A DNA stretch of 64,000 nucleotides from Anaerostipes caccae L1-92 (lineage in GTDB: Bacteria > Bacillota > Clostridia > Lachnospirales > Lachnospiraceae). The position numbers and the translations under genes are program-made. Of the stretch, positions 28,014 through 32,371 are shown one piece after another. The stretch spans positions 3,261,501 through 3,325,500 of the forward strand of contig NZ_AP023027.1 of assembly GCF_014467075.1 (NCBI RefSeq). The letters are read 5' to 3'. Within the stretch, counting starts at the first letter, position 1. Each line of letters opens with the position of its first letter. The notes beneath the pieces were generated by a model. The model saw only the letters and a list, made by a program, of their open reading frames with translations, made no database searches and had not been told where the DNA came from.

Positions 28014-29543
28014 ATGAGTTTATTAGATATTAAAGATTTATCACATTCATTCGGTGATAAACAGCTTTTTAAAGAAACAGAATTCCAGCTCAATAAAGGA
28101 GAACATATAGGAATTGTCGGTCCAAATGGTGCAGGAAAAAGTACGTTTATCAAAATCTGCACCGGACAGATTACTCCCGACAGCGGACAGATCTTCAGAC
28201 ATCCTGCAGCTTCTTTCGGATGTCTGGATCAATACGCACAGATGAAAGAAAATATAACGATCTCAGATTTCTTAAAATCTGCTTTTCAGTCTCTCTTTAT
28301 AAAAGAGGAGCAAATGAATCTGCTGTATTCAAAAGCAGCGGCCGGAGATGAAAAAGCCCTCCCTGCCGCCGCACGGCTCCAGGAACAATTAGAGCTCCAT
28401 GACTTTTATCAGATTGACACCAGGATTGAACAGGCAGCTGCCGGACTGGGACTCCTCACTATCGGTCTTGAATGCCCGGTAGAAAAAATCAGCGGAGGTC
28501 AGAGAGCCAGAGTCATCCTCGCTAAACTTTTGCTGGAACAGCCTTCTGTCCTGCTGCTGGATGAACCTACAAACTTTCTGGATAAGGAGCACGTCTCCTG
28601 GCTGGCAGACTACCTTTCAGGGCTTCCGAGCGCTTTTCTGGTTGTCTCCCACGACAATGAATTTTTAGAACAGAGTGTCAACCGCGTATGCGATATTCAT
28701 AACGGCAGACTTACAAAATATTACGGCACCTACTCTGATTTTTTAAAAAAGAAAACGTTTCTTCAGGAAGAATATATCCGACGGTATTCTTTCCAGCAGA
28801 AAAAGATTAAAGAAACAGAAGAATTTATCAGAAAAAACATGGCCGGGCGAAAGTCAAAAATGGCCAGAGGACGCAAGAAGCAGCTGAACAGGATGGAACG
28901 CATGGAAAATCCAGACGTAACTGAGAACCGACCGTGTTTTAATTTTTCACAGCTTCCGGTGACAAATGCTGACCACCTGTCCGTGAGACATTTGTCTGTG
29001 GGGTATCAATATCCGCTTCTCTCCGGCCTTCAATTTTCAGCAAAAGGAGGACAGAAAATTGTGATCACAGGTTTCAACGGAATCGGCAAATCCACCCTTT
29101 TGAAAACTCTGACGAATCAGATTCCTGCCTTAGACGGCAGTTTCTCATTTTCAGAACAGGTCACCATCGGATACTTTGAACAGGATCTGATATGGGATGA
29201 TACAACCAGGACACCGCTACAGATCGTGTCTGACTGTTATCCCTCTCTCCCAATCAAAAAAGTACGGCAGCATCTTGCGCAGTGCGGAATTTCCAGCTGT
29301 CATGCCGGACAGGAGATAGGATCATTGAGCGGAGGTGAACAGTGTAAGGTAAAGTTATGCCTGCTGACACTAAAACCATGTAACTTTTTAATTATGGATG
29401 AACCCACAAATCACCTGGATGCAGCGGCTAAAGAAGCATTGAAAAATGCATTGAAAGATTTTACAGGAACCGTACTGGTTGTATCTCATGAAGAGAATTT
29501 TTACTGCGGCTGGGTGGACAGAATGATACAAATCCAAAAATAA
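28014..29543 (+). CDS. ABC-F family ATPase (ribosome-associated, possible antibiotic resistance)
   Basis: 509 residues: two ABC ATPase domains and no membrane segments. Domain 1 has GPNGAGKST, SGGQRARV and LLLDEPTNFLD; domain 2 has GFNGIGKST, SGGEQCKVKL and LIMDEPTNHLD. The basic linker (FIRKNMAGRKSKMARGRKKQLNRMERM, about residues 278-305) is the part that reaches into the ribosomal E site in ABC-F proteins. The members that protect ribosomes from lincosamides, pleuromutilins or streptogramin A are often controlled by attenuation, as this leader suggests. Subfamily and drug cannot be fixed by eye. Confidence 0.9.
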   Translation: MSLLDIKDLSHSFGDKQLFKETEFQLNKGEHIGIVGPNGAGKSTFIKICTGQITPDSGQIFRHPAASFGCLDQYAQMKENITISDFLKSAFQSLFIKEEQMNLLYSKAAAGDEKALPAAARLQEQLELHDFYQIDTRIEQAAAGLGLLTIGLECPVEKISGGQRARVILAKLLLEQPSVLLLDEPTNFLDKEHVSWLADYLSGLPSAFLVVSHDNEFLEQSVNRVCDIHNGRLTKYYGTYSDFLKKKTFLQEEYIRRYSFQQKKIKETEEFIRKNMAGRKSKMARGRKKQLNRMERMENPDVTENRPCFNFSQLPVTNADHLSVRHLSVGYQYPLLSGLQFSAKGGQKIVITGFNGIGKSTLLKTLTNQIPALDGSFSFSEQVTIGYFEQDLIWDDTTRTPLQIVSDCYPSLPIKKVRQHLAQCGISSCHAGQEIGSLSGGEQCKVKLCLLTLKPCNFLIMDEPTNHLDAAAKEALKNALKDFTGTVLVVSHEENFYCGWVDRMIQIQK

Positions 29544-29573
29544 TTTTAACCTTGTATTGCTATCCATACATTT

Positions 29574-29621
29574 CAAAAATCGAGCAGAGATCATACAGGA
29601 ACTGTCATGCTATGATCTCTG
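29574..29621 (-). terminator. Terminator of the DeoR gene
   Basis: Perfect 11-base stem CAGAGATCATA/TATGATCTCTG (29585-29595/29611-29621); on the minus strand followed by CTCGATTTTTG. The DeoR stop codon lies in the hairpin loop. It may also stop read-through from the convergent ABC-F gene. Confidence 0.75.
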
Positions 29622-30375
29622 TTCCATATTCTCTCAGCACTTCTCTTATCTCTTCCTGAGGCTCCTTCTCACAGATTATCCCATCCACCTGTGTAAAATC
29701 TGTAAAGACATAATTTGCCTGGAAATCAAACTTTTTTGTCTCCATGACCAGATATCTTCTGCGGCTTTTACTGATGGCTTTTTGTTTCATAGCTCCGTCC
29801 TCCGGAACATAAGTCGTGACCACATTTCCTTTTACGTCCGCTCCGACGACTCCCATAAAGCAGAGGTCAAACCTGAAGTTCTCCATCATAGAGAGGGTCA
29901 GCGAACCCAGAAACCCAATTTGAGACCGATTGAACTCTCCTCCCAAAAGAATAAATCCGGTGTTTCCATCCGCTGCGAACAAATTTGCGATATCCAGCAT
30001 ACAGCTTACGACCGTCACGTTTCGTTTAGAACGGATGATTTCCCTCGCAACCTCCAGATTCGTTGTAGATGTATCCAAAAAAACCACATCCCCGTCACTG
30101 ATCAGCTTTACCGCTTTTTTTGCAATTCTCTGCTTTTCTTTCAGGTTTTTTTCTTTCCTGGAAGAAACCGCGTTGCTGTGCCCGGGGTGCATGCCTTCCG
30201 TCAGAACGGCGCCTCCATAGGCACGCTTTAAAAGACCGCGTCCTTCCATACTGGCCAGATCTTTCCGGATACAGTCCTCTGTAACCTCAAACATCCGGCT
30301 CAGCTCTTTCACTCTTACTTTCTGGTTTTCTTGCAAAAGTTCAAGAATCTTTTGCTGTCTTTCCTCTACAAACAT
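29605..30375 (-). CDS. DeoR-family transcriptional regulator
   Basis: 256 residues. N-terminal DeoR helix-turn-helix (RQQKILELLQENQKVRVKELSRMFEVTEDCIRKDLASMEGRGLLKRAYGGAV) and C-terminal DeoRC sensor domain (residues about 75-235, DGDVVFLDTSTTNLEVAREI). These usually bind a phosphorylated sugar intermediate. Isolated between the ABC-F gene and the Abi remnant, so the target is unclear. Start is ATG behind AGGTGGTGA. Confidence 0.92.
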   Translation of the reverse strand: MFVEERQQKILELLQENQKVRVKELSRMFEVTEDCIRKDLASMEGRGLLKRAYGGAVLTEGMHPGHSNAVSSRKEKNLKEKQRIAKKAVKLISDGDVVFLDTSTTNLEVAREIIRSKRNVTVVSCMLDIANLFAADGNTGFILLGGEFNRSQIGFLGSLTLSMMENFRFDLCFMGVVGADVKGNVVTTYVPEDGAMKQKAISKSRRRYLVMETKKFDFQANYVFTDFTQVDGIICEKEPQEEIREVLREYGTEIIA

Positions 30376-30557
30376 GATCTGTCACCACCTGATTTTTCTT
30401 TATATTTTAACAGAAAAGAGAGAGACCGTCTATTGTACCTTTTAAATTCACTCTTTACATAAAGCAAGTTAAGATTACTTATGATTATTTTTAAAAAGTG
30501 TCTTGAAGAATATGTAATTTATTTACTTATAAACAATATTATGTTAAACTAATTTCA

Positions 30558-30625
30558 GGGATCAGGTTTCAGATACTCGAGAGGACTGAAACCGGGGGAG
30601 GACCTGAGGGCCCTCCTTTTTCTTC
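30558..30625 (+). ncRNA. Structured RNA upstream of the Abi_2 remnant (abiF-RNA-like)
   Basis: Two hairpins in a 67-base stretch: GGTTTCAG/CTGAAACC (30565-30572/30586-30593, loop of 13) and a terminator GGAGG-A-CC/GG-C-CCTCC (30597-30616) followed by TTTTTCTT. It is GC-rich inside an AT-rich region and directly precedes an Abi_2 gene. Abi_2/AbiF genes are known to carry a conserved upstream RNA (the abiF RNA motif). That this is a member is inference; it could simply be a leader terminator. Confidence 0.5.
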
Positions 30626-30654
30626 AAACATTTCTTTTACAGGAGATATGTAAA

Positions 30655-30849
30655 TTGACAAAACCTTTTCTAACATATAATTCTCAACTTTACAAACTTA
30701 CCAACGAAAAAAAGTTAATAATTACTGACCGTGAGAAAGCTCTTCAAATACTAAAGGATATTGGTTATTTTTCTCTTATCGGAGGTTATAAAACTCCCTT
30801 TATTAACCCTATGACACGCATATATCAAAACAAAATAAATCTACATTAA
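30655..30849 (+). pseudogene. Truncated Abi_2 (AbiD/AbiF-like) abortive-infection protein
   Basis: 64 codons from a TTG nine bases after AGGAG. The text KPFLTYNSQLYKLTNEKKLIITDREKALQILKDIGYFSLIGGYKTPF matches the start of the Abi_2 family, whose full proteins are about 300 residues with HEPN-type RNase motifs. Those are missing here: the frame ends 1 base before the stop of the convergent RpiR gene. The gene is much more AT-rich than its neighbours, a sign of transfer. The remnant of a defence or toxin-antitoxin module is the best reading. Confidence 0.75.
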
Positions 30850-31608
30850 TCACTCTTCGCTTGTTCCATACTCCAATCCCTTTAAAAGTAAGAACTCATT
30901 GATCACAAAAAACTGAGCTGTCATATATACATCGGAATTAAACCTTCCCTTCAGCACCGGATGAGCATAAAACTGAAGGCTGATATCACTGAGCCTCGAC
31001 AATTCATTATTCCCCACTTTTGTCACAGAGATGATTTTGACACCCTTTGCCTTCAGCCTGCCTGCAAGTTCATTGACAAAGGCATTTTCACCGGAAAGAG
31101 AAAACAGAAAAAATACGTCTCCCTCTTTTACGATTTCCAGCACCATCTTTATTTCTTCCCGGCCTTCGATCAGATTACAAAGATAGTCCAGAAAAAGCAG
31201 GTTCTTTTTTAACTCTCTCGCGGCATTTTTCTGGACCGCTCCTGTTCCGTATACATATATGCTTCCGGCCCTGGAGAGCATCTCTGAGACATCCGAACAG
31301 TCCCTGTCCTTCATCATATCCAGAGTCTTTATGTAATCCTGGTAGACCCGCTCGATCTCCCTTACATCGAAGGATTCCTCCTCCCGGCTGTCCCATTTCA
31401 GAAAAATCTTCAGTTCCCCGTACCCTTCCATCCCCAGCTTATGAGTAAACCTTGAGACGGTTGTGTGTGACACATGGCACTGTTTTGCCAGCTCCTGGAT
31501 CGACATAGTCTGACACTCCTTCTTGTGCCGCAGAATAAAGTTCCAGATGCTCAAATCATTTTCATTCAGTTTATCATAATTTTCTTCAATCAGGGTTTCC
31601 AGCCTCAT
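30850..31608 (-). CDS. MurR/RpiR-family transcriptional regulator (copy 1)
   Basis: 252 residues. N-terminal HTH_6 (MRLETLIEENYDKLNENDLSIWNFI...TMSIQELAKQCHVSHTTVSRFTHKLGM) and a C-terminal SIS phosphosugar-binding domain (about 120-240, IYVYGTGAVQKNAARELKKNL; DVFFLFSLSGENAFVNEL). Start overlaps the end of the neighbouring RpiR gene by 23 bases. Likely senses the 6-phospho-glucoside of the nearby PTS/GH4 locus. About 35-40 percent similar by eye to copy 2. Confidence 0.92.
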   Translation of the reverse strand: MRLETLIEENYDKLNENDLSIWNFILRHKKECQTMSIQELAKQCHVSHTTVSRFTHKLGMEGYGELKIFLKWDSREEESFDVREIERVYQDYIKTLDMMKDRDCSDVSEMLSRAGSIYVYGTGAVQKNAARELKKNLLFLDYLCNLIEGREEIKMVLEIVKEGDVFFLFSLSGENAFVNELAGRLKAKGVKIISVTKVGNNELSRLSDISLQFYAHPVLKGRFNSDVYMTAQFFVINEFLLLKGLEYGTSEE

Positions 31609-32371
31609 CCGCTATCTCCTCTTTTTTTGTCTTATACTCCATGTACTTTAAAAATAAAATCTCAATCAAAATGAAATATGATGTGAGAGAATCATACTCT
31701 ATGTGACTGAACGGCTGGGAAAACACTGTCTCGGTAACATAGAGAGCATAATCTGCCATATGTGCCAATGTGTTTTCCCGAAGCTTCGTGATGGACAGCA
31801 CAGAGACGCCCCGGATCTTTAGATTTTTAGTGAAATTGTTGATAAATTCATTCTCTCCTGAAACAGATATGATGATAAACAAGTCATCCTCCGTAACAAT
31901 GCTGAGAAGCCTTTCCGCTTCCTCATATCCGCTCAGATCATAGATCAGCCTCCCGCTCATCATGAAGGTCCGCTTTAACTCTTTTTTAATGGAAGACTGG
32001 ATCATGCCGATCCCATACACGTAGATATTCTTTGCCTGATCAAACTTCCTAAAGATATCTGTACAGTCCTTTTCTTTCATGCTGCCGATCACCCGGCGGT
32101 ATGACTCACAGACCATGTCCACATGCCCGATGTTTTCCTTTGCCTCCTGATTATCAAGCTTTAAAAAGACCTTTAGTTCACCATAACCTTTTAAGGACAG
32201 CTTCTGGGCAAACCGCAGAACGGTTGTCCTCGACACACTGCACTTAAATGCCAGCCGGTCTATGGCAAGCTTTTCACACTCTTTCCTGTGCGAAGATATG
32301 TAATTCCATATGTATAAATCATTCTCGTTAAGCTGTCCGTAATGCTTGTTCACCAGTTCATCTAATTTCAT
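31586..32371 (-). CDS. MurR/RpiR-family transcriptional regulator (copy 2)
   Basis: 261 residues with the same HTH_6 plus SIS plan (MKLDELVNKHYGQLNENDLYIWNYI...IDRLAFKCSVSRTTVLRFAQKL; IYVYGIGMIQSSIKKELKRTF; DLFIIISVSGENEFINNF). Tandem paralogue of the gene that follows it. A 144-base gap containing a hairpin separates it from the EIIA gene upstream, so the pair may be a distinct or attenuated unit. Confidence 0.92.
   Translation of the reverse strand: MKLDELVNKHYGQLNENDLYIWNYISSHRKECEKLAIDRLAFKCSVSRTTVLRFAQKLSLKGYGELKVFLKLDNQEAKENIGHVDMVCESYRRVIGSMKEKDCTDIFRKFDQAKNIYVYGIGMIQSSIKKELKRTFMMSGRLIYDLSGYEEAERLLSIVTEDDLFIIISVSGENEFINNFTKNLKIRGVSVLSITKLRENTLAHMADYALYVTETVFSQPFSHIEYDSLTSYFILIEILFLKYMEYKTKKEEIADEAGNPD

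Follow-up and report, generated by a model that had tools for sequence, protein, structure and literature searches.

Between two regulator genes of the window, by which we mean the whole 64-kb stretch analyzed here (positions 3261501-3325500 of contig C1 in the one-contig, 3.59-Mb genome G000), lies an insert that carries the beginning of an AbiF-type module: a probable promoter, a structured RNA, a terminator, and the first codons of a toxin gene (Table 1). The RNA is located between 30375 and 30850, and the names of the neighboring regulator genes, RpiR and DeoR, were given by eye and are putative. The order promoter, RNA, terminator, toxin gene on one strand is that of a type III-like AbiF toxin-antitoxin module, with a 64-codon stump in the place of the intact toxin. 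We regard the identity of the locus as a remnant of such a module of RNA and toxin as firm. This is what the first-pass annotation had proposed, and the proposal held: neither of the two outcomes that it had named as speaking against it, a lack of Abi_2 similarity in the 64 codons and a lack of an abiF-associated structure in the RNA, was obtained.

Table 1. Features of the insert and its borders (window coordinates) and abiF RNAs in phage regions (coordinates of each region)
Feature	Location	Strand	Basis or remark
Left direct repeat, 8 bp, TCACTCTT	30448..30455	.	Exact copy also at 30850; one copy only in sister genome G004
Insert, 394 bp: promoter, antitoxin RNA, toxin-gene stump	30456..30849	+	Missing from sister genomes G004 and G009
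Probable promoter: TTTACT, 17 nt, TAAACT, with TG ahead of the -10 element	30522..30550	+	Degenerate version of the intact relatives' promoter
AbiF-type antitoxin RNA, fold intact, no convincing Rfam 15 match	30555..30622	+	Model R2
Hairpin 1 (30566-30572 with 30586-30592) plus loop region, core GATACTCGAGAGGAC	30566..30592	+	7/7 pairs standard in the window
Terminator hairpin and T-run between RNA and gene	30594..30621	+	R2 alignment, folding
Possible ribosome-binding site AGGAG ahead of the TTG start	30641..30645	+	Sequence
Abi_2/AbiF toxin-gene stump, 64 codons, TTG 30655 to TAA 30849, HEPN part absent	30655..30849	+	Clade profile and alignment
Right direct repeat, 8 bp, TCACTCTT	30850..30857	.	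Convergent gene 31608..30850 has its stop codon here
abiF RNAs ending 4-5 nt ahead of a tRNA	L250:2032-2068, L251:1506-1542, L252:1501-1537		S-CREM1, S-SZBM1, S-SRM01 (Synechococcus phages)
abiF RNAs (RF03085) of other phages	Near 1501 of L253-L258 and L260		Acinetobacter phage Acj61, Roseobacter phage CRP-143, Aeromonas phage PZL-Ah8, Salicola phage CGphi29, Mycobacterium phages Optimus, Redno2, and Beem

Profiles of full-length members place the stump in the Abi_2/AbiF clade of its relatives. A clade profile made from 40 relatives of at least 285 aa scored 76.9 bits over its positions 1-60 of 309, and a second, made from 22 relatives that overlap the first set, scored 73.4 bits (E 3.6e-20). 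Against the full-length relative L018 the stump aligns without a gap along residues 1-56, with 60% identity over shared columns, and several intact relatives apparently use the same TTG start (judged by eye). The clade profiles bear out the earlier reading of the 64 codons as an Abi_2/AbiF N terminus without its catalytic part, with Pfam Abi_2 (PF07751) alone covering only its profile positions 1-28 and staying below its cut-off (15.4 versus 25.6 bits, E 0.023). In L018, the catalytic R-N-x-x-x-H motif of the HEPN domain occupies positions 207-212 as RNVCAH, and its R, N, C, A, and H do not vary among 22 relatives; the motif lies ~150 residues beyond the stump's aligned part of L018 and is absent from the stump. 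The clade profile also matches the solved AbiF 8VZ6 along positions 3-222 (E 1.9e-21). Similarity of the stump to intact genes, as followed by blastn, stops at 30830-30833. The RpiR gene, to which the truncation had first been ascribed, did not cut the toxin gene off; instead, the inserted fragment itself ends inside the toxin gene, flanked by the direct repeats, and the stop codon of the downstream gene lies in the right one. Since the fragment stops within the toxin gene, the HEPN ribonuclease is dead.

The site without the insert can be seen in related genomes. The flanks are ~95% identical to those of the sister species G004 (95.1% over 28900-30458 and 95.6% from 30850 on), and both matches meet in the repeat. 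Since the insert is absent from G009 too, its acquisition in the lineage of the window is the more parsimonious history. The remark of the first-pass annotation on low GC content applies to the insert (0.30) and the coding stump (0.28) when set against the whole window (0.46), but not to the RNA itself (0.56). When 200000 random position pairs at the spacing of the two repeats were drawn from the window, 67 shared at least 8 bases. The repeat may be either a duplication made by transposition or microhomology. A transposon with terminal inverted repeats was considered and rejected, as none were seen by eye at the insert ends, and so was a plasmid origin, with no match among 72,556 plasmids at E ≤ 0.001. 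At the same threshold, no second copy of 30400-30860 was found in the same genome.

The RNA is best understood through its relatives. A first DNA search in 61 genomes matched it in three of them, each time with an intact Abi_2-like gene behind it. Retrieval by protein yielded 60 loci, 50 from genomes and 10 from viral contigs, some of them one element met in two collections. Upstream of most of these genes lies a promoter-like stretch, followed by an ~68-nt RNA that begins near UCAGUGAUC and comprises a hairpin and a terminator; the RNA was recognized in 52 loci (51 by alignment score and L107 by model), and R2 found nothing in the remaining eight. R2 is a covariance model that we built from an alignment of 39 relatives' RNAs, with the window excluded. 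Across these 39 RNAs, 93.7% of cells are paired and 16 of 18 pairs show changes on both sides (72 cells), and none of 500 shuffles reached the observed value on any of the five measures used. Sliding the structure by one column lowers pairing to 57-63%, a comparison that favors the tested structure over the slid versions because it was drawn from single-sequence folds; RNAalifold alone predicts 17 of the 18 pairs. In hairpin 1, 99.6% of cells are paired and six of seven pairs show changes on both sides.

R2 recovers the window RNA at full length (78.8 bits, E 4e-22), with no non-standard pair marked and the loop intact, and it is the sole R2 match up to E 1 across the 64 kb. Its folding energy is unremarkable (z -0.45); stability was dropped as evidence, and we judge the RNA real on comparative grounds. 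The structured RNA, hairpin then terminator, that had been described ahead of the gene is present and backed by covariation, although its start lies three bases before the 30558 given for it. The promoter keeps 8 of 12 consensus bases at the relatives' position, versus at least 9 in 36 of 39 intact-toxin loci. A general promoter scan did not list this promoter, nor did a simple terminator scan list the terminator.

The Rfam abiF RNA (RF03085, cut-off 37 bits) is likewise a short hairpin RNA upstream of Abi_2 genes, and it also occurs alone and beside tRNAs in phages, but it does not match the window RNA: there was no match at E ≤ 5 in 29500-32000 and none at the window site in a search of the genome, whose single match up to E 10 lies at 463691 (34.4 bits). 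Among 16 relative loci, one reached the gathering threshold, L097, which has a distant Abi_2 gene and no R2 RNA. R2 is accordingly a separate RNA type tied to one Abi_2 clade, and membership of the window RNA in RF03085 is rejected. Matches to the bare core of hairpin 1 in viral sequences (L026-L029) and in one genome (L022) lay in unrelated sequence and were taken as chance.

The same genome holds a second AbiF remnant (L002, G000:C1:463691-464041), in which the RF03085-like RNA just mentioned, below threshold, precedes an Abi_2 stump of 93 positions (463769-464041). Two of the three Abi_2 loci of the genome are accordingly N-terminal stumps preceded by an RNA, and the third, at 3054628, is intact. 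Since this sole intact Abi_2 found in the genome is of another subfamily (130 bits) and has no preceding R2 RNA, no cognate target for the window RNA was found in the cell.

A census of the family puts the window into a broader perspective. Applied to 397 family genomes, R2 identified 89 RNAs, spread over 67 of the genomes; 88 of these RNAs were counted, one at a contig end having been excluded beforehand. Taking as intact a downstream gene that covers at least profile positions 15-265, we found an intact toxin behind 39 RNAs, Abi_2 pieces behind 17 (including the window), and nothing recognizable behind 29, with 3 cut by contig ends; thus, 46 of the 88 loci (window included), from 41 genomes, are without an intact downstream toxin. 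These classes contain some special cases: (i) one of the 17 partial loci, L115, is broken by one stop codon only; (ii) two of the 39 intact entries are tandem RNAs before one gene (L170, 246-381), and in L112 the frame is lost after position 269; and (iii) among the 29 empty loci, two RNAs, the second one of L152 and that of L178, closely follow an intact Abi_2 gene, and L188 is weak (30.4 bits, two of seven pairs). The break point of the toxin gene differs among loci. Hairpin 1 is fully paired at all 39 intact loci, at all but one of the 17 partial loci, and at all but two of the 29 empty ones (43 of the 46 solitary loci), while a promoter score of at least 9, found in the 36 intact loci cited above, is reached by 13 partial and 17 empty loci (30 of the 46). 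A counter-search by protein in the same genomes found 40 near-intact genes of at least 315 bits, 39 of them with the RNA upstream (by eye); in the exception, G224, it lies downstream. Full-length Abi_2 genes scoring no more than 255 bits belong to other subfamilies and have no adjoining R2 RNA. Two gene fragments inside contigs with at least 1 bit per position (G138 and G357) had no R2 match in their vicinity up to E 10; fragments at contig ends (G300, G190, and G146) were set aside, and lower-scoring fragments of uncertain subfamily were left uncounted. The excess of lone RNAs over lone toxin pieces is no proof of selection, because the gene is ~14 times as long as the RNA and would be broken first by chance.

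Several solitary RNAs have neighborhoods of their own. L172:1701-1768 and L177:1708-1775, both on the minus strand, share a unit of ~880 bp in which the R2 RNA precedes a small ORF and a gene for a zeta-like kinase (named by eye); the unit sits in two genera at sites without similar flanks. The top R2 score of the genome search, 88.3 bits, belongs to L111:1501-1568, a bare RNA in unrelated sequence with neither a promoter match nor a toxin. At the genome locus L132:1501, the gene behind a solitary R2 RNA resembles Phd/YefM antitoxin genes (by eye).

R2 RNAs also occur in phages. Viral contigs were searched with degenerate patterns and then with R2, the scan covering the fetched stretches. Six contigs carry the RNA beside an intact Abi_2 gene (L219, L220, L221, L224, L225, and L227), and nine loci carry it without one by profile in the fetched stretches (L222, L223, L226, L229, L231, L233, L234, L238, and L239). 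Three of these nine, L229, L233, and L234, on contigs of up to 170 kb, represent one phage, being identical over all shared sequence around the RNA (12.2 and 6.4 kb). Here, the RNA (L229:2475-2542, minus strand, 71.2 bits) fills the gap between tRNA-Met and tRNA-Arg in an eight-tRNA array and overlaps the last two bases of tRNA-Met. A second tRNA array, on a contig with terminase and portal genes, holds an R2-like RNA (L226:7477-7535, minus strand, 36.5 bits) that starts 6 nt past tRNA-Ser and keeps hairpin 1 and its loop, with a shorter, altered terminator part. In both tRNA-array RNAs, the promoter and terminator are gone or changed, while hairpin 1 is still paired. Further copies lie directly behind an open frame of a 112.8-kb contig (L238:6040-6104, minus strand, 65.7 bits), in a 25.2-kb contig (L239:819-887, minus strand, 72.8 bits), and, followed by a Phd-like gene (by eye), at L222:2555 and L223:5100; the match in L231 is weak (33.2 bits). 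The whole records behind L229, L226, L238, L222, and L223, which may be fragments, contain no Abi_2 gene either. No R2 match was present in four of the first eight contigs (L228, L230, L232, and L235) or in 12 of 14 later ones. By blastn against the phage collection, the L229 RNA had no match and the L226 RNA short partial matches only (E 2 or more). The window RNA had a sole match there, MT838012 from human feces (94% over 67 bases), which also encodes a protein 99.7% identical to that of L018.

Phages carry Rfam-type abiF RNAs as well. The abiF RNA of cyanophage S-CREM1 has been proposed to be functional during infection, with no anti-AbiF role named in the available part of that report (PMC9964418). 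We examined 11 phage regions, S-CREM1 and ten picked from match lists of 45 and 18 records, and RF03085 scored above its cut-off in ten (Table 1). In S-CREM1, the RNA is placed between tRNA-Asn and tRNA-Gly. A tRNA directly follows the RNA in three of the ten, the Mycobacterium copies are followed by one at a distance of ~270 nt, and no tRNA is seen in the remaining four stretches. None of the ten stretches has an Abi_2 annotation, and none of the six phage groups appeared in the organism tallies of two tblastn searches with Abi_2 proteins. The number of records overstates that of independent events, because a single genus accounts for the Mycobacterium phages and a single family for the three cyanophages. 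R2 found none of the RF03085 hairpins of the ten phage loci. Bacillus phage P59 was rejected as a case of an abiF RNA in a tRNA array: Rfam gives a skipping-rope RNA just before that spot and no abiF. This skipping-rope RNA (RF02924) lies at L259:1430-1499, inside the tRNA array of the phage.

An RNA antitoxin paired with a ribonuclease toxin, as in AbiF modules, is also the principle of ToxIN, and a phage is reported to escape that system by making a toxin-binding RNA that mimics ToxI; the fold of the ToxIN toxin and its RNA are unrelated to those of AbiF.

The closest functional precedent comes from Clostridioides difficile, where the prophage RNA RCd22 has been shown to neutralize its AbiF toxin in cis and in trans by binding (PMC12373285). 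In the available text of that work, RCd22/AbiF-Cd resembles the window in having its own promoter and terminator and an RNA directly upstream of an Abi_2/AbiF HEPN toxin, but it carries two abiF motifs of the Rfam type and its toxin is intact (PMC12373285); in the window, a single hairpin of a different type precedes a toxin gene that is dead. The tandem R2 RNAs of L170 recall these two motifs. PbAbiF, solved with its RNA (PDB 8VZ6), belongs to the same protein family but is distant in sequence, and the window protein is without the catalytic part; the comparison with PbAbiF covered the proteins. In PbAbiF, the HEPN domain is reported to assemble the dimer, and AbiF is regarded as the ancestor of Cas13, according to the accessible portion of the report (PMC12737573). 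Racr, solitary CRISPR-repeat RNAs of phages, resembles the present case as a lone RNA partner of a defense nuclease, carried to block the nuclease, but as far as that source was available it targets Cas6f and Cas7f and not a HEPN toxin, which makes it an analogy only (PMC10651486). In the open-access abiF-RNA literature available to us, we found no description of the R2 RNA type, of solitary antitoxin RNAs as antidotes, or of the tRNA-array placement; the publication that first described abiF and the AbiF-to-Cas13 article of 2025, which lie outside that scope, may cover parts of it.

We propose that a fragment of a mobile AbiF toxin/RNA-antitoxin module was inserted between the two regulator genes, probably in one event together with the 8-bp repeat. 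The antitoxin RNA and the weakened copy of its promoter would have arrived together, the RNA being recognized by the covariance of its fold and the promoter by position and sequence. The RNA is most likely still made and would end at its own terminator, and its hairpin may bind AbiF proteins of the same clade. As a solitary antidote, it could then weaken the effect of an AbiF toxin that a phage or another element introduces. That the window locus is a solitary antitoxin RNA which may still neutralize related AbiF toxins is the reading we favor, with moderate confidence. We infer the free-standing function from the intact fold, from the action of RCd22 in trans as far as its description was available (PMC12373285), and from phage copies in settings that no longer fit a toxin operon; the lone RNAs of both R2 and Rfam types in bacteria and phages make the silencing of related toxins more plausible. 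Selection on the window RNA is unproven, the insert being young.

The same module could instead be a pure relic, its RNA no longer made or useless and bound to decay, and looking intact only through recent insertion. This is possible, though on balance we doubt it. Against a functional reading, and in keeping with a relic, stand the young insert, seen in the empty sites of G004 and G009, the weak promoter, the lower frequency of good promoters at solitary loci, and the failure to find a cognate toxin in the genome. An intact structure needs no selection, given that the insert is younger than the split from the ~95% identical sister species, and the toxin gene was the larger mutational target. 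Moreover, the one comparable solitary pair, L172/L177, shows no excess conservation of its RNA (91% identical, compared with 79-95% in the following 100-base steps of the shared unit). A relic fits less well, on the other hand, with an RNA that shows no non-standard pair and an intact loop, and with solitary copies that recur over genera and in phages, some of them placed as if used. The RNA, which has a hairpin and a T-run and is located amid the local genes, might also now serve them, for example, as a transcription terminator that separates the divergent promoter region from the convergent regulator gene; we consider this very improbable, since the convergent gene lies on the opposite strand and ends at the insert edge, the sister species manages without the insert, and a plain terminator would have no need of the conserved loop. 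Least credible of all is an activity of the 64-residue stump itself, for example, as a dominant-negative partner of AbiF dimers, which its open frame, ribosome-binding site, and start shared with relatives would allow but which sits poorly with a break point that varies by locus and with the loss of the HEPN domain, the dimer-assembling part of PbAbiF in the portion of the report available (PMC12737573).

Returning to the antidote reading, we suggest tentatively, as a reading about as likely to be true as not, that AbiF antitoxin RNAs in general are portable antidotes, retained by bacteria after toxin loss and carried toxin-free by phages against AbiF ribonucleases during infection, some of them in tRNA arrays where tRNA processing would free the RNAs. 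They would be the toxin-antitoxin counterpart of RNA anti-CRISPRs, and the window would be one bacterial copy. The AbiF RNA has been seen as groundwork for the guide RNA. R2 adds to this picture an RNA type that Rfam 15 does not recognize in the window and that marks one clade of AbiF modules. If AbiF antitoxin RNAs do circulate toxin-free, they would account for some of the non-tRNA RNAs in phage tRNA arrays and would constitute a layer of RNA-based counter-defense against HEPN ribonucleases.
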